The notes under the pieces were generated by a model. The model did no database searches. It had not been told where the DNA came from and saw only the letters and a program-made list of their open reading frames with translations. Position numbers and translations under genes: made by a program. A stretch of 64,000 nt of DNA from Hymenobacter metallilatus (GTDB lineage Bacteria > Bacteroidota > Bacteroidia > Cytophagales > Hymenobacteraceae), in contig NZ_RWIS01000006.1 in NCBI RefSeq assembly GCF_003944705.1, forward strand, positions 62,001 through 126,000, in the 5' to 3' direction. Every line of letters starts with the position of its first letter. Within the stretch, counting starts at the first letter, position 1. This document shows positions 6,844-52,563 of the stretch, piece by piece.

Positions 6844-7070
6844 TTCCCCTCCTTGGAAAGGAGGGGCCAGGGGTGGTTGATGCTGGCAGAACGATGTAAA
6901 TGAACGTCATGCTGAGCTTGCCGAAGCATCTCTCCCGCTTCGTTGCAGTAGTAATCAGGCGAAGCGGGAGAGATGCTTCGGCAAGCTCAGTATGACGGAT
7001 TGGGTATTTATGGGTGAAGCTGTTCAACGATTGGTCAACCACCCCCAACCCCTCCTTTCCAAGGAGGGGA
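6844..7070. repeat. Nested palindromes: two repeat families, one inside the other
   Basis: The outer arms are at 6844-6880 (CCCTCCTTGGAAAGGAGGGG plus CAGGGGTGGTTGA) and 7035-7070 (the complementary CAACCACCCCCAACCCCTCC and so on). The inner arms are at 6902-6942 (GTCATGCTGAGCTTGCCGAA and on) and 6960-6997 (TTCGGCAAGCTCAGTATGAC at the end). The two families occur separately elsewhere (5657-5690 and, related, 3283-3556), so the inner one seems to have landed in the outer one. No credible gene lies in the 275-bp gap. Confidence 0.9.
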
Positions 7071-10510: not shown

Positions 10511-10599
10511 CTGTCATCCTAAGCAGAGCGAAGGACCTTATCACGTCAGGGCAGTTCGTGCTGACGTGATAAGGTCCTTCGCTCTGCTCAGGATGACAG
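10511..10599. repeat. Long palindrome, ATCCTGAGCnnAGCGAAGGACC family
   Basis: Two 39-base arms (10511-10549 and 10561-10599) with an 11-base loop differ at only one position. The arm begins CTGTCATCCTAAGCAGAGCG and continues AAGGACCTTATCACGTCAG. The same family is at 21460-21548 and 46853-46950. It sits between two minus-strand genes and can act as a hairpin in either transcript. Confidence 0.95.
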
Positions 10600-21425: not shown

Positions 21426-21459
21426 CCGATAATGCGTAAAAGAATAGAGAGCATAGCGT

Positions 21460-21548
21460 CTGTCATCCTGAGCGGAGCGAAGGACCTTGTCACGTTACAA
21501 CGATTCGTGCTGATGTAATAAGATCCTTCGCTCCGCTCAGGATGACAG
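21460..21548. repeat. Long palindrome, ATCCTGAGCGGAGCGAAGGACC family
   Basis: The left arm begins CTGTCATCCTGAGCGGAGCG (21460 on) and the right arm ends CGCTCCGCTCAGGATGACAG (21548), with inner mismatches. Same family as 10511-10599 and 46853-46950. It lies between the MerR and dprA genes, both minus strand. Confidence 0.92.
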
Positions 21549-21563
21549 ATTAAGCTACCCTTG

Positions 21564-21950: not shown

Positions 21951-22047
21951 GTCATTCCGAGCGGAGCCAAGAAATCTCGCTTGGCTGACGTCTGAGTTGC
22001 TACTGCAACCTCAGCACGCGAGATTCCTCGGCTCCGCTCGGAATGAC
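21951..22047. repeat. Palindrome, GTCATTCCGAGCGGAGCC family
   Basis: Arms GTCATTCCGAGCGGAGCC (plus AAGAAATCTCGC) and GCGAGATTCCTCGGCTCCG (plus CTCGGAATGAC) at 21951-21980 and 22018-22047. A short version is at 1404-1443. It lies between the divergent merR and alaS genes. Confidence 0.92.
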
Positions 22048-39556: not shown

Positions 39557-39702
39557 AATTAAAAATTGAGAATTAAAAATTAAAAATGGCTGTCTGTCCG
39601 TCGGCTGTTTTGATTTTTCATGGACTTTCGGATGGTATGATTCCGAAAAATCATCCGCTCAACTTTTAATTTTTAATTCTCAATTTTTAATTAAAAATGC
39701 CA
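39557..39702. repeat. AT-rich inverted repeat before ribE
   Basis: AATTAAAAATTGAGAATTAA (39557 on) pairs with TTAATTCTCAATTTTTAATT (39673 on). It spans the gap between the sugar transferase stop and the ribE ATG; the right arm ends at or over that ATG (AAAAATGCCATG). Repeats of this ATTAAAAATT kind are common in the phylum. Confidence 0.9.
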
Positions 39703-44452: not shown

Positions 44453-44584
44453 GGGGCAAAGCTACGCAACGCGGGTGGCTGAACGGGAGGCCGGGGCAGT
44501 ACGGGCATCTGAACCGCCCGCATCCGGGCCGGTTTTCCTCATCAGTGCCTTTGCGTACCTTCGCCCCGCACTCACCACCCACCC

Positions 44585-46795
44585 ATGACTGCTGAAACTG
44601 CTGCTGCTCTGGAAACGGAAGCTTCTCTCACCCGCCCCGATGCGGCCACGCTGCGCCGGGCCTATCTGCTGATGCGCACGGCCGATGAAATGGCCCGCCT
44701 CTACGAAGAAAACAAGGCCGTAACGGCCCGCTACGTACACGCCACGGCCCGGGGCCACGAGGCCATTCAGCTGGCTGCCGCCTGCTTTCTGGGCCCCCAG
44801 GACTACGCCGCACCCTACTACCGCGACGATGCCATGCTGCTGGGCATGGGCCTGCAGCCTTACGAGCTGATGCTGCAGCTCATGGCCAAGCGCGACGACC
44901 CGTTTTCGGGCGGCCGTACCTACTACAGTCACCCTTCCTTACGCCGGGCCGGTTTTCCTACCATTCCGCACCAAAGCTCCGCTACCGGGATGCAGGCCAT
45001 TCCGGCCACCGGCGTGGCCCACGGCATGAAGTATCTGGAAGGGATAAAGGATGAGGGATTAAGGACGAAGGATGAAGGAGTGGAGGCCGGACGGTTGATA
45101 GCGCAAAGTGAAGGTTTGTTTCAACAACTAGCGAAGAACCTTTCATCCCTTATTCTTAATCCCTCATCCTTTATCCATAATCCTCTCGTCCTCTGCTCCA
45201 TCGGCGACGGGGCCATGACCGAAGGCGAAGTGGCCGAGGCCCTGCAGATGGCCGTGCTGCACCAGCTGCCCATCATTTATCTGGTGCAGGATAACGACTG
45301 GGGCATCTCGGCCACCGGTCGTGAGATGCGCAGCATGGATGCCTACGAGTTTGCCGCCGGTTTCAAAGGCCTGCACCGGTTGCAGTTCGATGGGGCCGAC
45401 TTCCTGGCCAGCTACGCCGGCATGCAGCAGGCCGCCGCGTACGTGCGCCAGCGGCGCGGGCCGGTGCTGGTACACGCCAAATGCCCGTTGCTGGGCCACC
45501 ATACCAGCGGGGTGCGCCGGGAGTGGTACCGCGGCGACAACCTCGCCCAGCATACCCTGCAGGACCCGTTGCCCCGCTTCCATCAGCAGCTGCTGGAGCT
45601 GGGATTTGGGGAAGAGGAGCTGCAGCAGCTGGCGGCTCAGGCCCGCACCACGGTGCAGCAGGACTACGAGCGGGCCCTGGCCGCGCCCAACCCCGACCCG
45701 GCCACCTTCCAGGACCACGAGTTTGCCCCACCGGCCGTAACCGAAGAAGCCGGGGAGCGGAGCCCCGCCGGGGCCGATAAGGCGCTGATGGTAGACGCCG
45801 CCCTGCACGCCGTGGACGACATTCTGCGCGAGTTCCCGGAGGCGTTGTTCTACGGCCAGGATGTAGGTGGGGAACTGGGCGGCGTGTTCCGGGAAGCGGC
45901 CCTGCTGGCCAAAAAATACGGCGACGCCCGCGTGTTTAATACGCCCATTCAGGAGGCCTATATTGTGGGCAGCACCGCCGGCATGAGTGCCGTGGGGGCC
46001 AAGCCCATTGTCGAAATTCAGTTTGCTGATTATATCTGGCCCGGCCTCAACCAACTGGTGGAGGAGCTAAGCAAATCCTGCTACCTCTCCAACGGCCAGT
46101 TTCCGGTGCAAAGCCTGATTCGGGTGCCGGTGGGGGCCTATGGTGGGGGCGGGCCTTACCACTCGGGCTCCGTGGAAAGCACCCTGCTCACCATCCGGGG
46201 CATAAAGGTGGTATATCCCAGCAATGCGGCCGATATGAAAGGCCTGCTGCGCGCTGCCTTCCTCGACCCCAATCCCGTGGTGCTGCTGGAGCACAAAGGC
46301 TTGTACTGGAGCAAGGTGCCCGGCACTGAGGATGCTAAAACCGTGGAGCCCGCCGCCGGCTACGTGCTGCCCCTGGGCCGGGCCGCCGTAGCCCAGGTGG
46401 CCGCCGCCGAAAAGTTGGCTTCGGGCGAAACCTGCGTGGTTATTACCTACGGTATGGGTGTACACTGGGCCAAAACCGCCAGCCGCCAGCTGCCCGGCCA
46501 GGTCGAAATCCTGGACCTGCGCACCCTTAACCCCCTCGATTGGGAGGCGGTACAGGCGGCCGTACGCCGCCACGGCAAAGCGCTGGTGCTCACGGAGGAA
46601 CCCTTGCTGAATTCCTTCGCCGAAAGCCTGGCCGGCCGCATCCAGCGCCACTGTTTCCGCCAGCTGGATGCTCCGGTGTTTACCCTGGGAGCCGCCAATC
46701 TGCCCGCCATTGCCCTCAACGTGGAGCTGGAAAAACAGATGCTTCCCAACCCCGACAAAGTCCTGACGGCTCTGCAGGAGCTGCTCGGGTGGTAG
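44585..46795 (+). CDS. 2-oxoacid dehydrogenase E1, fused alpha and beta parts, with repeat insert
   Basis: A protein of 736 residues. The alpha part (to ~360) has the thiamine-diphosphate motif GDGAMTEGEVAEALQMAV with LVQDNDWGIS. The beta part (from ~405) has LFYGQDVGGELGGVFREAAL, IQEAYIVGSTAGMSAVGAKP and VPVGAYGGGGPYHSGSVEST. It decarboxylates a branched-chain keto acid (2-oxoisovalerate) or pyruvate and passes the acyl group to E2 lipoate. The single-chain fusion is common in Bacteroidota. Residues ~153-198 are an extra segment just before the ThDP motif that maps on a palindromic repeat. A TACCTTCG box lies at 44556-44563. E2/E3 genes are not adjacent. Confidence 0.93.
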   Translation: MTAETAAALETEASLTRPDAATLRRAYLLMRTADEMARLYEENKAVTARYVHATARGHEAIQLAAACFLGPQDYAAPYYRDDAMLLGMGLQPYELMLQLMAKRDDPFSGGRTYYSHPSLRRAGFPTIPHQSSATGMQAIPATGVAHGMKYLEGIKDEGLRTKDEGVEAGRLIAQSEGLFQQLAKNLSSLILNPSSFIHNPLVLCSIGDGAMTEGEVAEALQMAVLHQLPIIYLVQDNDWGISATGREMRSMDAYEFAAGFKGLHRLQFDGADFLASYAGMQQAAAYVRQRRGPVLVHAKCPLLGHHTSGVRREWYRGDNLAQHTLQDPLPRFHQQLLELGFGEEELQQLAAQARTTVQQDYERALAAPNPDPATFQDHEFAPPAVTEEAGERSPAGADKALMVDAALHAVDDILREFPEALFYGQDVGGELGGVFREAALLAKKYGDARVFNTPIQEAYIVGSTAGMSAVGAKPIVEIQFADYIWPGLNQLVEELSKSCYLSNGQFPVQSLIRVPVGAYGGGGPYHSGSVESTLLTIRGIKVVYPSNAADMKGLLRAAFLDPNPVVLLEHKGLYWSKVPGTEDAKTVEPAAGYVLPLGRAAVAQVAAAEKLASGETCVVITYGMGVHWAKTASRQLPGQVEILDLRTLNPLDWEAVQAAVRRHGKALVLTEEPLLNSFAESLAGRIQRHCFRQLDAPVFTLGAANLPAIALNVELEKQMLPNPDKVLTALQELLGW
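45041..45177. repeat. GGATAAAGGATGAGGG palindrome inserted in-frame in the E1 gene
   Basis: The left arm GGGATAAAGGATGAGGGATT (45041 on) and right arm AATCCCTCATCCTTTATCC (to 45177) are perfectly complementary over ~22 bases, and imperfectly further in. The same arms flank the terminator at 50366-50572. The segment stays open in the E1 frame and encodes about 46 residues (DEGLRTKDEGVEAGRLIAQS and NLSSLILNPSSFIHN). Confidence 0.92.
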
Positions 46796-46998
46796 TTTTA
46801 GGGTAGGAAGGTGTGAGGGTAAGTGTGTGTGAGGGTAGGAGGTAAAAGCCGGTCATCCTGAGCGCAGCGAAGGACCTTATCACGCTGGAACGAGTCGTTG
46901 TTACGAAATACCGTTCTAATGTAATAAGGTCCTTCGCTGCGCTCAGGAGGACCGGCTTTTACCTCCTACCCCTACACCCGCCTACCCTCACACCCTAA
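46796..46998. repeat. Nested palindrome between E1 and TamA-like genes
   Basis: The inner arms are GGTCATCCTGAGCGCAGCGA (46851 on) and CGCTGCGCTCAGGAGGACC (to ~46953), of the same family as 10511-10599. The outer arms are TAGGGTAGGAAGGTGTGAGG-like on the left and CCTACCCTCACACCCTA on the right. The right outer arm covers the stop codon of the TamA-like gene. No gene is present. Confidence 0.9.
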
Positions 46999-49625
46999 AA
47001 CGGGTACCCAATACCCAGGTTAAACGCCGACTGGTCTTCGCGGAGGCTGAAATTGCGCAGTATCCACTTATTGCCGGTGGCTGAGGGGTCGTATACCTTG
47101 GTAGCCACGTCGAGGCGCAGAATCAGGAAGTCGAAATCGAAGCGGAACCCGATGCCCGAACCTACCGCAAACTGCCGGTAGAACTCGTTGAGCTTGAACG
47201 TGGCCCCTGGGCGCGGGTCGTTACGCAGCGTCCAGACGTTGCCAAAATCAGTAAAAACGGCTCCTTTGATAAAGCTGTAGATGGGGAAGCGGTATTCCAC
47301 GTTGCCTTCCAGTAGTACCTCCCCGGGCTGCTCGGTATTGTAGTCGCGCACGATGGTGGAGCTGCCATCCGAGTTTTTGACGGTGCGAGTGGTTGGATAG
47401 GAGCCTGGTCCCAGGCGGCGCGGCTTCCAGGCCCGTACACTGGTACTGCCGCCCGCAAACAACGATTTGTCGTACGGAATCAGATAGAGCGTTTCCGTGA
47501 CGGCATCGGAGCCATCCTTGTTTTTGGTTGTGAGCTGGGTGCTGCTGAGGGCAGTGGCCAGGCCACTAGCCAGCCGGTACACAAAGTAGGTACTGGGCGT
47601 AAGCTTGTAGTAGCGCCGGTAATCCGCCGTGAGCTTACCAAAATCATACACCTTCAGCCGGTTGCTGCGCAGGTCGTTGCGGTAGCTTGTAAGCGGCTCC
47701 TGCTGATACAGGCCCCGGGTAAGGCCACCCAACTCGGCAAACAGCCGCAGGTAGTGCGCACTGCGGGTTTGGGTGAAGTCGTTGGAATTGTATAGGTAGG
47801 TGGCGTTGAAACTGGGAATGAACAGGTTATCAAAGCTGCGGTAGAGAGGCGAGCCCTGGTTGATGCGCAGCCTTTCCAGGGTATTGCGGAAAGACGTATC
47901 AATGGAAGCCGTCCGGATAACGCTCACGTCAATCGGGGTCAGCACAATCTGGGCGAAGGGTGAGGGCTGCCAGAGGTAATCGAAGGTGCCCTCTACGTTG
48001 GTGCGGGTGTATTCGGGCCGCTGCACGTAGGTGTACGAGGCGTTGAAGCGGGTGCGTGGGTTGTACTGGCTCAGGTAGCGGTTGGCCCGCCAGGGTACCA
48101 GAAACTGCGGCAGCACCAGGTTTACGTTCGCCCCCAGCTGGGTGGTCAGCTGGCTTTTCAGGTTCGCCGATTGTACGTCGCTCTGCGTAAGGCCGGTGAG
48201 GTCGTACTGGCCCTCAAAACCCGCCCGTACCCCAAATTCCAGCACCTCGGCGCCGCCAAATACGTTGCGCACTTTCAGGCGCACGTTGCCGAACGGCCCC
48301 ACTTGCCGGGCCACGTAGGTGCCGCCAAACTCGGTGGTTTCCTGGAATTTTTTGGCCGGGGAGGCATTCACGGTGGCGTCCAGCTGGCCCTGGGCCGAAT
48401 CGGCGGCGGCCTCCGGGCCCCGCACCCGGCGGTACGTTACGGTGCTGAACCGGAACATATCCAGGCCGGAAAGCTGACGCTGGGTCTGCTGGGTTTTGGC
48501 GAGGCTGTACGGCTGGCCGGGGCGCACCTGCAGCTTCTGGTCCAGGGCCTTGGTGCTGAAGCGGTGCCGGTAGGCCAGGTAGCGCACCGAATCGCGCACC
48601 AGGGTATCGCGCCGCTGCCCAAAGCGTATCAGGCCGGCATCGGTGATAAAGTTGACGTTCCGGATGGTGTACAGCCGGTGCTGCCCGCCCCGGGCCGGGC
48701 GGCTAATGAGGGTACGCAGCCGCACGGTGGTGGGAGCAAAGCTGGTATCGGCTTCCAGGGTAATATACTGCTGCCGAAAATCGAAGAAGCCCTGATTTTT
48801 CAGCAGGGCCTCAATGCGGTTCCGCTCCGCCCCAATGGTTTCCTCATCGTACTGGTTGCCTACGTGCAGCAGGCTCTGGGCCTGACTGGCCAGTACCCGC
48901 CGGGCCACGGCCGTATCGGCAATGTCATAGTCCAGCTGCGAGTAGTGAAACGCCGGCCCCTCCTGAATCCGGTATACCACCGTTACGCGCTGCGAATCGG
49001 TGTGAAAAGGTGACTTGAGGGCAAAAATCCGGAAGGGGGCAAACCGCTCCGTGGGCACCGTATCCGTAGCGGATACAGAGCTGCGGAAAAATCCCTTGGA
49101 CTTCAGAAATATAGCCAGCTGGGTAACCGACACGGCCGTGAGCGACGAATCGTAGATGACCGGGGCCTCGCCCAGGCGCATAATTGAGTTGCCTTTGTCC
49201 AGGGCCAATTGGTGGCGGCGGGTATGCCGCTCCCGCTTGGTGAGCAGCTTGCCCACCTCCGCCGAGTCGGTGCCGGCTGCCTTAATGAGGCCGTCGTAGT
49301 GGGTGCGGTCCTCATCGAGCTTACGCTGAATGCGCTCCTGGTTATAAAATGAGCGACCTAGCTGGTAGATGGCTACCTTTGGCAGCGGGAAGGTGCTGTT
49401 CGGCTTTTGCTGCACCAGAGCCTGCAACCGCTCCGTATCGGCATTTTGGGTGCCTTCTACCTTTACGCGGCTTAGCAGGCGCTGGCCCGGCTTCAGCAGC
49501 TTCAGCGGTGAGCAGGCGCTGAGGCCCCCGGCCAGCAGCAGGCTGCCCAGGGCCAGGCCCGAGGTGAGTTTTCCAGAAAACAGGGCCCGCTGGGGCCACC
49601 CGTTCAATTGCGAATATGGTATCAA
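46995..49625 (-). CDS. BamA/TamA family outer membrane protein
   Basis: About 876 residues from a TTG at 49625; no ATG is available before the conserved part and another TTG is at 49607. A lipobox LSAC follows a hydrophobic segment, suggesting a lipid-anchored N-terminus. POTRA-like repeats follow (LLSRVKVEGTQNADTERLQA; IVLRRQ-type strands), then a 16-strand barrel with a final domain ending EDQSAFNLGIGYPF and a V/G-x-R/K-x-W block (STSVRAWKPRRLGPGSYPTT). It inserts or exports proteins at the outer membrane. The start overlaps the divergent TrmH start by 10 bp. Confidence 0.9.
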   Translation of the reverse strand: MIPYSQLNGWPQRALFSGKLTSGLALGSLLLAGGLSACSPLKLLKPGQRLLSRVKVEGTQNADTERLQALVQQKPNSTFPLPKVAIYQLGRSFYNQERIQRKLDEDRTHYDGLIKAAGTDSAEVGKLLTKRERHTRRHQLALDKGNSIMRLGEAPVIYDSSLTAVSVTQLAIFLKSKGFFRSSVSATDTVPTERFAPFRIFALKSPFHTDSQRVTVVYRIQEGPAFHYSQLDYDIADTAVARRVLASQAQSLLHVGNQYDEETIGAERNRIEALLKNQGFFDFRQQYITLEADTSFAPTTVRLRTLISRPARGGQHRLYTIRNVNFITDAGLIRFGQRRDTLVRDSVRYLAYRHRFSTKALDQKLQVRPGQPYSLAKTQQTQRQLSGLDMFRFSTVTYRRVRGPEAAADSAQGQLDATVNASPAKKFQETTEFGGTYVARQVGPFGNVRLKVRNVFGGAEVLEFGVRAGFEGQYDLTGLTQSDVQSANLKSQLTTQLGANVNLVLPQFLVPWRANRYLSQYNPRTRFNASYTYVQRPEYTRTNVEGTFDYLWQPSPFAQIVLTPIDVSVIRTASIDTSFRNTLERLRINQGSPLYRSFDNLFIPSFNATYLYNSNDFTQTRSAHYLRLFAELGGLTRGLYQQEPLTSYRNDLRSNRLKVYDFGKLTADYRRYYKLTPSTYFVYRLASGLATALSSTQLTTKNKDGSDAVTETLYLIPYDKSLFAGGSTSVRAWKPRRLGPGSYPTTRTVKNSDGSSTIVRDYNTEQPGEVLLEGNVEYRFPIYSFIKGAVFTDFGNVWTLRNDPRPGATFKLNEFYRQFAVGSGIGFRFDFDFLILRLDVATKVYDPSATGNKWILRNFSLREDQSAFNLGIGYPF

Positions 49626-50368
49626 AAGCAGTAGCGAAATACGTGCACGCGCTGCACCTGAAGAAGTACCGGCTCCGGCACGAGGCCTTCCTGGTGGAAG
49701 GCGGCAAAAGCGTGCGGGAGCTGCTAAGTTCCGGGATTCTAACGGAACGCCTCATTGGTACGCCGGAATTCCTGGAGAAAATTCGTGCCGAAGTGCCCGC
49801 CGGGGTACCCGTTGAAGTTGTTTCGGAGGAGGAATTAACCCGCCTGAGCACACTCAGTACCAACAATACGGCCCTGGCCGTGGCGCGTTTGCCCCCGGAA
49901 AAGCCCTTGCAGCCCGCCCCCGGTCAGTTGCTGCTGGCCCTGGATGAAGTGCGCGACCCAGGCAACGTGGGCACCCTTATTCGCCTGGCCGACTGGTACG
50001 GGCTGGCCGGGGTGGTGTGCTCCGATACCTGTGCCGACCCCTGGGCGCCCAAAACCGTGGTGGCTACTATGGGCTCCTTCACCCGGGTGCCGGTGTGGCA
50101 GCGCAACCTCCCCGAGTGGCTCGGCGGGTTGCCCCAGGAACTGCCCGTGTACGGGGCCGACCTGCACGGCGACAATGTCCACCGCCTCACCCTGCGGCCA
50201 ACCGGCGTGCTAGTAATGGGTAGTGAAAGCCACGGCCTCACGCCCCCCGTTGAGGCCTGCCTCACCCAGCGCCTGCACATTCCGGGCCGGGGCCAGGCCG
50301 AAAGCCTCAACGTAGCCGTATCGGCGGCAATTCTGCTGGATAACTTCTACCGGCATGAGGTAGGTTGA
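49616..50368 (+). CDS. TrmH/SpoU family RNA 2'-O-methyltransferase
   Basis: A protein of 250 residues. SPOUT knot motifs: LALDEVRDPGNVGTLIRLAD, TVVATMGSFTRVPVW, GVLVMGSESHGLTPPVEACL and IPGRGQAESLNVAVSAAILL. An N-terminal substrate domain (HALHLKKYRLRHEAFLVEGG) precedes the catalytic part. Methylates ribose 2'-OH in rRNA or tRNA; target unknown. It is divergent from, and slightly overlaps, the TamA-like gene. Followed by a terminator inside a palindrome. Confidence 0.94.
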   Translation: MVSKAVAKYVHALHLKKYRLRHEAFLVEGGKSVRELLSSGILTERLIGTPEFLEKIRAEVPAGVPVEVVSEEELTRLSTLSTNNTALAVARLPPEKPLQPAPGQLLLALDEVRDPGNVGTLIRLADWYGLAGVVCSDTCADPWAPKTVVATMGSFTRVPVWQRNLPEWLGGLPQELPVYGADLHGDNVHRLTLRPTGVLVMGSESHGLTPPVEACLTQRLHIPGRGQAESLNVAVSAAILLDNFYRHEVG

Positions 50369-50572
50369 GGGATAAAGGATAAAGGATGAGGGCTGTAATT
50401 GCTTCACGCTGCTCTTGGCTCTGCCCTACGCAAAAGCCCCCAACGTCAGTGCTGACGTTGGGGGCTTTTGCGTTAGAAAGCGTATCATTTTAAAAAATGA
50501 AGGATTAGCTGCGCTGTTCTGCGGGCGCTTCGCGCTACTCGCAATGTCATCCTTTATCCCTCATCCCTTATC
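50366..50572. repeat. Palindrome with GGATAAAGGATGAGGG arms around a terminator
   Basis: Left arm GAGGGATAAAGGATAAAGGA (50367 on) and right arm CCTTTATCCCTCATCCCTTA (to ~50571). Same family as the insert in the E1 gene. The space between arms holds the hairpin at 50429-50472. It separates the TrmH stop and the barrel-protein stop (convergent). Confidence 0.9.
50429..50472. terminator. Bidirectional terminator
   Basis: CGCAAAAGCCCCCAACGTCAG pairs with CTGACGTTGGGGGCTTTTGCG around a 2-base turn. It has A/T-rich ends suitable for termination on both strands between convergent genes. Confidence 0.92.
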
Positions 50573-51733
50573 CTAATTCAACAGCGAGAAGCCGAAGCTG
50601 AGCGTCTGGGCCTGGGGGCCCCGGTTGCTTTTGAACGTGTCGTTGAGGTTATATTTCACGAACAGGTCGATGCCCCGGATGCCCACGATGCCCTGCACGC
50701 CGTACTGGAAGTCCTCCAGGTTGTAGCTGCCCCGGTCCTTGTCTTTCTTGGTGCCGCCGTCGGCTTCATACTTGATTTTGGTGTGGGAGCCCAGGCGGTA
50801 GCCGATGAAGCCCCCGGCCCCGAGGCGAAACGCATCCTTACCCTTCTTATCCTGGAAGTTGAGCATGGGCATCAGGGGCAGGTTGATGCTGGTCACGGCC
50901 AGCTTGCTTTTCTCCAGGTTGCGGCCGGCATCGGCCTTTACAATGGTCGTGACGCCGTTGGTATTCACAAACTGGTAGTTGTTGTCGAGCATGTAGTTGT
51001 TGAAGGCTACCTCGGGGCCGGTGCGCAGGAACAAGGGCGAGCCCTTGCCACCCACCCGGACATCGTAGTGCCAGTTAAGGCTGAGGTAGCGCGAGGCAAT
51101 GGGCCGCAGGTCGGGCGCAAACTGGTTTTGCGGCACCGATTTGTTTACCAGCGCATTCACGCCCAGGTCAATGTCGAAATTACTGTGAACGGCACGGTTC
51201 CGGCGCTCCTCCTGCTTGGCTTTACGCTCGGCATTGCGCACGGAGTCGGAAGCTGCCGACGTACCCACCCGCACCGATACGTGGTCGGAGCCGCCGTCGG
51301 TACTCTCCTCCACCGATACCCCGAACACCCGGCCCAGGGTCACGTCCACGTGGTCGGCCGATTTAGTGGCTTTAGCTCCGGTACCCTGGTTGCGCACCGT
51401 AATACGGATTTGCTCGGGTACCTGCTTGCCGGGCTGCTCCTTGGCCGGGTAGAACTCCATGGTTACCTGCTCCGCCTTGGAGTTTTTGCCGGCGGCTTCG
51501 GCCTGGCTGATGTACCCATCCAGCAGCACCAGCAGCGAATCGAGCTTGTACTGGCGCAGCTCGCGGAGCTGGGCTTTGTTCTTCACATACAGCGTCATGC
51601 TGGCCTGGTTGGGCAGTTTCACCACAATGGTATCATCGTTGGCCACGGTGGTGGGGCGGGCAAGCGTTTTGGCCTGACCGGCAGTGGCAGTACCAAGGAG
51701 CAGAGCGGCGACGAGAACGGGGAAGCGTTTCAT
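50573..51733 (-). CDS. Outer membrane beta-barrel protein, sigma-operon partner
   Basis: A protein of 386 residues: signal peptide (RFPVLVAALLLGTATAGQA), a helical periplasmic segment, then an OmpA-like barrel domain with alternating aromatic strands (YLSLNWHYDVRVGGKGSPLF, FRLGAGGFIGYRLGSHTKIK) ending LSFGFSLLN. The stop lies next to the palindrome with the TrmH gene. It is the last gene of a sigma factor / anti-sigma-like / barrel unit, a frequent arrangement in Bacteroidota. Ligand unknown. Confidence 0.8.
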   Translation of the reverse strand: MKRFPVLVAALLLGTATAGQAKTLARPTTVANDDTIVVKLPNQASMTLYVKNKAQLRELRQYKLDSLLVLLDGYISQAEAAGKNSKAEQVTMEFYPAKEQPGKQVPEQIRITVRNQGTGAKATKSADHVDVTLGRVFGVSVEESTDGGSDHVSVRVGTSAASDSVRNAERKAKQEERRNRAVHSNFDIDLGVNALVNKSVPQNQFAPDLRPIASRYLSLNWHYDVRVGGKGSPLFLRTGPEVAFNNYMLDNNYQFVNTNGVTTIVKADAGRNLEKSKLAVTSINLPLMPMLNFQDKKGKDAFRLGAGGFIGYRLGSHTKIKYEADGGTKKDKDRGSYNLEDFQYGVQGIVGIRGIDLFVKYNLNDTFKSNRGPQAQTLSFGFSLLN

Positions 51734-51759
51734 AACGAAGGGCGCAAAAAGCGGGAGAG

Positions 51760-52563
51760 TTAGAGTTGGATGACTTTGGTGAGGGTGTGGCCCGCCACGC
51801 GGGCCTGCACCGTCACGGTTTCGGGAATGCCAGCGGCCGTAAGGCTCACTTTCTCGCCCTGCACCACGTTGCGGGCCTGCCGCAGCAAGGATACCAGGCG
51901 GGGCCGGTGGGCCGGGGCGGCCGGGGCAGGAGCCACGGCCGCGGGCCGGACTTCTACCTCAATGGGGCCGGTGAGGGCTACTGAGTGGGTGGCAAGCTCC
52001 GGAAGAGGGCTGGGCTCGGGCTCAGGCCCGCGCTCCGGACGAGTGGGCTGAAGAGCAGGAGCCGGCAGTTCTGGCGAAGCGGTCCGGGTAGTAGCCTGCG
52101 CCAGCTGGCGCGGGTCCGAAGCACGGGGCCGGTCGGGCCGGCGGGCTTCCGAAGCGGGGTCCGGTTGTACACCCACGGACCGGGTTTCGGAAGAGGGCAC
52201 CGCAGTGGCCACTGCGGCGGCCGGCTCGGGGGCCGGGGCTTCTGAGGGGCTAGATGGAGAAGTGGGGGCGGGGGTTGCCTGGGGCTGTACACTATTTTTT
52301 GTGGCCGGAGCTGCGGGCCGGCGGGGCGTGGCAGCCGCCATTTCCGGTTGCGTGGCTGAGTGACCGGCGCCGCCTACCACTACCCACCAGGTGCCGCCCA
52401 GCAGCGCGAGCAGGGCTACGGCGGCCGCAGCCAGCCACAGCACCGGGCGGCGCTTGCGGGGCTGAATTTCAGCTGCTATTTCGTCCCACAGAAACGCGGG
52501 CGGCGTAGGAGCGTGGTCCGCCAGCCGGTCGCGGAACAGCTTGTCGATATCTTCGGGTTGCAT
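51760..52563 (-). CDS. Single-TM protein, probable anti-sigma factor
   Basis: About 267 residues from the ATG at 52563 (a longer frame from 52701 would overlap the sigma gene). A short N-terminal cytoplasmic helix (EDIDKLFRDRLADHAPTPPA, then FLWDEIAAEIQP) precedes one TM helix (VLWLAAAAVALLALLGGTWW), followed by a Pro/Ala/Thr-rich periplasmic tail and a beta-rich C-terminus. The size and position (4 bp after the sigma gene) suggest an anti-sigma factor, but no known anti-sigma motif is evident. Confidence 0.7.
   Translation of the reverse strand: MQPEDIDKLFRDRLADHAPTPPAFLWDEIAAEIQPRKRRPVLWLAAAAVALLALLGGTWWVVVGGAGHSATQPEMAAATPRRPAAPATKNSVQPQATPAPTSPSSPSEAPAPEPAAAVATAVPSSETRSVGVQPDPASEARRPDRPRASDPRQLAQATTRTASPELPAPALQPTRPERGPEPEPSPLPELATHSVALTGPIEVEVRPAAVAPAPAAPAHRPRLVSLLRQARNVVQGEKVSLTAAGIPETVTVQARVAGHTLTKVIQL

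Follow-up and report, generated by a model that had tools for sequence, protein, structure and literature searches.

Heptamer palindromes at one loop of the Hymenobacter E1 dehydrogenase: probable repeated entry of resident inverted arrays

The fused alpha-beta E1 2-oxoacid dehydrogenase gene of Hymenobacter metallilatus (genome of 5.2 Mb in 32 contigs) contains an in-frame DNA palindrome shortly ahead of GDGAMTEGEV, which we take to be the start of the ThDP-binding motif, and raises the question of where such DNA comes from and how a core enzyme accommodates it. Coordinates (Table 1) refer to the window, the whole stretch of 64,000 nucleotides that was analyzed. The E1 proteins of its Hymenobacter relatives are annotated "alpha-ketoacid dehydrogenase subunit alpha/beta", and the closest species-named ones, among the best 120 of 8000 proteins, belong to Hymenobacter rigui, H. 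perfusus, and H. pini. The host genome also codes for another fused E1-like protein frame, 36% identical, which could relax the constraint on E1. The palindrome lies between the peptides YLEG and NPLVLCSIGDG, and its two arms, 35 nt each and complementary at 89%, are built of tandem 7-bp units (GGATAAA, GGATGAG, and so on). The perfect arm of about 22 bp reported by the initial annotation corresponds, by reading, to the outer 22 bp (45042-45063 and 45155-45176), which pair without a mismatch. The same annotation counted 46 extra residues; this is the length of the palindrome, but the net gain is smaller, because the native loop was replaced too, and amounts to 32 residues as compared with H. 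pini (736 versus 704 residues, loop of 54 versus 22) and to 36-38 as compared with relatives with loops of 16-18 residues. The arm score of the insert region is 23, while 200 codon shuffles yield a mean of 7.0 and a maximum of 10. A 16-mer of the arm has five matches in the window with up to two mismatches (0.04 expected), a number reached by none of 100 shuffles.

Table 1. Features of the window and heptamer units of the palindromic E1 inserts
Feature	Position	Strand	Genome	Basis
Fused alpha-beta E1 2-oxoacid dehydrogenase gene, 736 aa	44585..46795	+	host	ORF; Pfam E1_dh, Transket_pyr, Transketolase_C
E1 palindrome	45042..45176		host	
Left purine-rich arm, GGATAAA GGATGAG GGATTAA GGACGAA GGATGAA	45042..45076	+	host	inverted-repeat search and reading
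Spacer between E1 arms, 65 nt	45077..45141	+	host	
Right pyrimidine-rich arm, inverted complement of left arm	45142..45176	+	host	
GDGAMTEGEV codons, presumed start of ThDP-binding motif	45203..45232	+	host	
AATTAAA/AATTGAG-type heptamer palindrome, intergenic, like architecture	39557..39692	.	host	
Second GGAT-type palindrome, between convergent rRNA methyltransferase-like and beta-barrel genes	50370..50573	.	host	
E1 units GGAT			host	
E1 units AATTAAA, AATTCAG or AATTCTG			G062, G112, G021, G057	
E1 units AATTATG, short arms of 13 nt			G054	
E1 units AATTAGT			G050, G074, G084, G022, G092	
E1 units GAGTTAA			G094, G078	
E1 units GAGTTTT			G107	
E1 units AATGAAG			G115	
E1 units TTCTCGT			G097, G096	

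Structurally, the insert is predicted to connect a helix (residues 138-157) to a strand (residues 202-207) at whose end the GDG triplet (residues 207-209) begins. The model is poor (mean pLDDT 64.6, from 42 closely related sequences; 49-65 for the blocks of the insert), so that only this local helix-loop-strand order is used. When E1 is matched to solved alpha chains (1um9, 1qs0, and 2bp7), the match splits into two stretches, the best of which starts at residues 201-204. G207, D208, and G209 are invariant in an alignment of 42 E1 rows. An insertion so near a catalytic motif had been called surprising. It does adjoin the motif in sequence but, GDG being at the end of strand 202-207, it would occupy the opposite end of that strand in this low-confidence model. 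The insert is presumably harmless, forming a loop that is tolerated rather than useful.

The E1 loop could be typed in 116 of 120 genus genomes, host included (90 plus 26; G018, G082, G090, and G099 were left out), and 17 of these 116, the host among them, carry a palindrome. None of 200 codon shuffles equals the arm score in 16 of the 90 genomes and in one of the 26 (G096), although for the few of the 90 loops trimmed by an approximate anchor the shuffle test covers that piece only. The heptamer units vary from genome to genome (Table 1), and the GGAT insert of the host has no counterpart among the other typed loops. This presence of other heptamer palindromes at the same site in congeners goes beyond the initial annotation and is invisible from the window alone. 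The arm 16-mer itself is matched, at one mismatch, in 14 of the 120 genomes searched, host included. The remaining 99 typed genomes possess short loops or longer non-palindromic ones, a few of which (G031, G110, G060) look like decayed arrays. One non-palindromic loop, DPRDFYESGQPxPGLY, is conserved in several genomes (G012, G038, G098, G101, G041, G040, and others). At the protein level, more loops exhibit array-type peptides, for example NSELKIKN...ILNSEFLIFNS, among the 118 parsed of the best 120 of 8000 proteins. Outside the genus, the loop is short in 12 of 13 outgroups, with arm scores of at most 5 (set of 27 loci: 13 non-genus and three genus loci read, 11 unread). The remaining outgroup, G121 (L234, another family), has a loop of its own at this position, 68 residues long, in which some 7-bp repetition is visible by eye but only an unrelated 18-bp self-complementary stretch is present. 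An old feature of the E1 family is thereby rejected, and the finding that the initial annotation had named as a refutation, the same insert in distant genera, is not made among these 13 loops.

What, then, is the relation of the E1 insert to other repeats of the genome? The arms had also been reported around an intergenic terminator at 50366-50572. This copy is confirmed, with arms of 34 nt complementary at 82% that enclose a terminator-like hairpin (50428-50473, perfect over 22 bp), but the notion of a single palindrome was wrong, as tandem heptamers of this kind occur at about 20 loci. Indeed, the arm 16-mer, at up to two mismatches, returns 40 forward and 41 reverse matches in the host genome, versus 2 and 3 for the reversed pattern. 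At most of the GGAT loci, units of the GGATNAN kind come first, followed by a variable spacer and then by the complement; six loci (L012, L014, L015, L016, L018, L023) have in common, by eye, a core near GGACACCGTTGAACGATAGTCC or its complement. The AATTAAA/AATTGAG-type pattern returns 86 and 83 matches versus 52 and 59 for the reversed pattern, which indicates a high background in this count, and many AATT-type loci are clear palindromes. The one in the window is not traversed by any frame open for 30 codons on both sides; it stops 10 bp short of the ORF at 39702.

A genome-wide search for the arm that separates coding from intergenic copies, as the initial annotation had proposed, finds the copies tested to be mostly intergenic. 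Among 41 entries whose placement was read (4 in the window, 18 GGAT-type, 19 AATT-type), E1 holds the sole full heptamer palindrome recognized inside a gene. Five further entries fall within frames that stay open for 30 codons or more to each side. Three of them, L011, L017, and L194, are upstream of the recognizable starts of their genes; L018b belongs to a 148-codon frame without recognized identity; and L192, a lone AATT array, lies in frame within a gene that we take from its motifs to be Mpl/MurC-like. In some species this gene (L192:1490-1520; L230; L231) has a second loop of the kind, with a heptamer array or palindromes in frame: among 30 loci read, the Mpl-like gene of relatives has a variable loop too, with a perfect 25-bp in-frame palindrome in G009 and one of 17 bp in G063, both of other sequence. 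By eye, the ends of the GGAT loci display no clear target-site duplication. The site orthologous to the intergenic copy L023 is occupied by other hairpins in G109, G062, G110, and G050 and by a weak one in G036 (the poor alignments of G052 and G004 being left out); therefore no clean empty site is seen for this copy. Similarly, in at least 8 of 11 relatives read by eye, other long hairpins are found where the host has its intergenic copy at 50366, 8 further loci not being parsed. At both of these orthologous intergenic sites (L132-L140, L151; L262-L268), most of the Hymenobacter read have a long hairpin that differs from one to the next, as if terminators or spacers were swapped whole.

The E1 heptamer type tends to match a family that is abundant in the same genome. 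Genome-wide counts, E1 copy included, were compared over the 116 typed genomes with patterns picked after the E1 inserts had been seen; the comparison involves seven of the 17 palindromic genomes (eight with G107), nine belonging to none of the groups. The host ranks first of 116 for the GGAT type. For the GAGTTAA type, G094 and G078 rank first and second (Mann-Whitney p 0.0007; 0.0004 when G107, rank 24, is added). For the AATTMAR type, G112, G021, G062, and G057 rank 2, 6, 8, and 30 (p 0.002), with G021 placed in this group though its AATTMAR units stand in the right arm, and with a control, the pattern read backwards, that is not clean. Type-swapped controls give p values of 0.16 and 0.45. 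This match favors the entry of resident copies, which may have inserted directly or have converted an insert already present.

We consider it probable that resident inverted heptamer arrays have repeatedly entered a permissive E1 loop. Each element consists of a tandem 7-bp run, usually purine-rich, then a variable spacer and the reverse complement of the run, and such elements mostly reside between genes. The arrays are probably selfish and may move as selfish DNA. In the host, one copy would have entered E1 in frame, replacing the short loop between the helix and the strand leading to GDG, and its translation would yield a loop of some 46 residues. As the site is permissive, copies would enter again and again: those of the genome's abundant family would arrive, decay, and be replaced.

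Alternatively, a single ancestral insertion could have been inherited vertically, its arms kept complementary by template switching or conversion while the heptamer type drifted or was overwritten by copies from elsewhere in the genome. The right arms of the host and AATTAGT types do align, by eye, in one 7-bp register, and for the mitochondrial palindromes of nematomorphs, template switching that corrects the arms has been put forward (PMC6649704). However, we judge such a history unlikely. The host and G062 are 90.6% identical over the flanks but 61.3% over 119 aligned bases of the insert. On a tree built from E1 DNA after removal of the loop (90 rows from the genus and 6 outgroups, with long outgroup branches and a warning of unlike base make-up in 11 rows), short or non-palindromic loops interleave with palindromic ones. 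The palindrome label needs 10 changes there, of which well supported branches force at least 9; this count omits 41 rows that belong to no group, and 7 of 500 shuffles need as few as 10. A protein tree of 56 rows, from which 34 of the 90 were left out because their anchor was unmatched, needs 9 changes, at least 6 of them forced, and 241 of 500 shuffles are as low. Close pairs differ in state: G112 is palindromic and G049 short, G068 is devoid of the insert of G022, G074 and G012 differ with flanks 95.1% identical, and so do G021 and G051, with weaker support. Lastly, the arm differences between G031 and G092 (score 9 versus 15) are uncompensated, which indicates decay and not correction.

Another reading is that insertion was rare and that homologous recombination in the flanks moves loop cassettes from one species to another. 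The AATTAGT insert common to G022 and another clade is 86-90% identical between them, against 87-89% for the flanks, and it is missing from the sister G068, which suggests exchange or common descent rather than insertion in this case. Exchange between species, or old common descent, may thus contribute too. The DPRD loop type is also scattered on the tree (7 changes, at least 6 forced) and was perhaps exchanged, or is an aged, adopted insert. As the general explanation, cassette exchange appears decidedly unlikely, since it accounts neither for the match between the E1 type and the abundant family nor for the isolated GGAT insert of the host.

Maintenance of the hairpin for regulation of the E1 mRNA, or a function of the loop, is very improbable. 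The RNA fold of 45036-45182 is indeed very stable (-64.1 kcal/mol, z -7.2; none of 200 shuffles equally good), but 99 of the 116 genus genomes have no palindrome at this loop, the arms have decayed in G031, and a known RNA family was rejected, Rfam returning none at gathering score within 44500-51800. Ribosomal bypass of the stretch, or a dead gene, for which the strong hairpin in the message might speak, is scarcely credible, as the coding frame is free of stops in 16 of 16 palindromic inserts while the other two frames contain 49 and 86, with stops in both in every insert, and as dN/dS between the host and G062 is 0.02 upstream (133 codons) and 0.033 downstream (533 codons) of the insert. 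The open frame and the purifying selection on either side argue that the E1 gene is alive and that the palindrome is read through. The initial annotation's view of a translated and tolerated in-frame palindromic insertion, related to the intergenic copy, is upheld in this respect.

The arrays have a strongly biased polarity, purine-rich arm first, with exceptions. In the host genome, the purine-rich run comes first in 19 of 19 pairs of opposite runs within about 260 bp among the AATT matches listed, and in all 12 of the 17 host stretches that have runs of at least two units on both strands. In a sample chosen by pattern, the 5' arm is purine-rich in 44 of 46 heptamer-type inverted repeats and in 24 of 34 other inverted repeats. 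The E1 palindromes follow in 14 of 16 cases, the exceptions being G021 (0.5) and G097 (0.12); G096 is not purine-first either. The inserts of G097 and G096 (L082, L391) are clearly pyrimidine-first, contrary to the usual polarity. A universal polarity was rejected on such exceptions, 2 of the 46 gathered repeats not being purine-first. Beyond the genus, a scan of species-representative genomes for three GGATRAR units lists at least 80 loci (L272-L351) from cyanobacteria, Chloroflexi, Verrucomicrobia, Acidobacteria, Bacteroidota, and others. Many of them are from Herpetosiphon. From the first match at each listed locus, 16 of 80 have an opposite run of two or more units no farther than 330 bp away in the 3' direction, and none of the 80 has one in the 5' direction. 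L276 and L310 have the right-arm stretch TTCCGCCTTC in common, with close variants in L294, L326, and L341.

The arm profile, from 44 arms chosen by pattern, is R-R-R-T-T/G-A-A. Telomere repeats fused end to end show this polarity, hence a bolder proposal, which we hold to be doubtful: inverted heptamer arrays would form one pan-bacterial class with a strong polarity, their purine-rich units pointing inward from either side as in telomere repeats joined head to head. An activity that copies heptamers or folds back would write them where DNA is broken or paused; lineages would change the heptamer and retain the architecture, and permissive protein loops, that of E1 among them, would record these events and yield new protein sequence. 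However, variant units often follow the same order in both arms, in better agreement with fold-back copying than with separate additions to two ends.

Repeat DNA shows up many times in one loop of a core enzyme within one genus, and where tested the inserts resemble a family abundant in the respective genome. The birth of protein segments from selfish or structural DNA would in this way become a testable series and not a single curiosity, in a setting that lies outside the reduced genomes of intracellular bacteria. The E1 case also brings to notice inverted heptamer arrays with polarity bias, a class that is widespread and little described.

In behavior, the closest precedent is that of the Rickettsia palindromic elements, likened here by description. 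These elements measure about 100-150 bp, and many copies are found inside different genes of one genome. They reportedly lie in frame within protein genes and are tolerated, as attributed to Ogata (2000, 2002) and to Claverie and Ogata (2003). The accessible part of PMC6649704 cites such in-frame Rickettsia palindromes and states that their arms lose identity over time. The likeness resides in a palindrome in frame inside a protein gene. In contrast, the host copies tested are nearly all intergenic, E1 being the lone full in-gene one; the phylum is another, the arms are tandem heptamers, and at one site, that of E1, the sequence varies among several species.

Hairpins with arms of the GTCATCCTGAGC, CGTCATGCTGAGC, or GTCATTCCGAGC kind are present in the window at 6905-6997, 10511-10599, 21459-21549, 21951-22047, and 46810-46994, the last one nested within outer repeat arms; we take these arms to resemble those of CGTC-tagged REPs. 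The host genome has three Y1_Tnp matches, two with REP-like hairpins nearby and none with heptamer arrays, and RAYT-driven REPs were rejected as an account of the arrays on this ground. The CGTC- and GTAG-tagged REP elements are hairpin repeats that, in the portion of the source available, differ from heptamer arrays in having no 7-bp units (PMC3733652).

Nematomorph mitochondria, as far as the available text goes, contain coding palindromes, long inverted repeats in translated genes with dynamic gain and loss (PMC6649704), as at the E1 site. Their arms are perfect and encode conserved residues, whereas those of Hymenobacter E1 are imperfect and encode a variable loop. Perfect upkeep of the nematomorph type was rejected, given the uncompensated differences between G031 and G092 and the variation of the loop sequence between species. 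TAACTGA heptamer repeats are described, in the part accessed, from Beggiatoaceae, cyanobacteria, and five Bacteroidetes (PMC4679880). They are likewise tandem heptamers, mostly intergenic and scattered over phyla, but the unit is another one and the repeats are direct, with 1 inverted among 170 sets in the main genome. Five array sequences of 13-15 nt gave no text match in the literature, and no description of Hymenobacter heptamer palindromes or arrays was found by title or abstract start, in a search that left most subscription journals outside.

In architecture, the closest precedent in the text available is that of the paired octa- and heptanucleotide arrays of Geobacter metallireducens, termed "predicted global regulator binding sites" and proposed as IHF/HU sites (PMC2700814). 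Both these and the host arrays are multicopy and made of tandem 7- or 8-bp units on opposite strands at a variable distance, and another Geobacter heptanucleotide family, in the same excerpt, also lies within genes. The Geobacter units are MTYCTGA and GTTGCTYN, and by eye the consensus MTYCTGA is not matched by the host profile; the excerpted text does not describe recurrent entry into one protein loop. In-frame palindromes and paired heptanucleotide arrays were therefore already known, and what the Hymenobacter E1 loop adds is an unusually clear comparative series.
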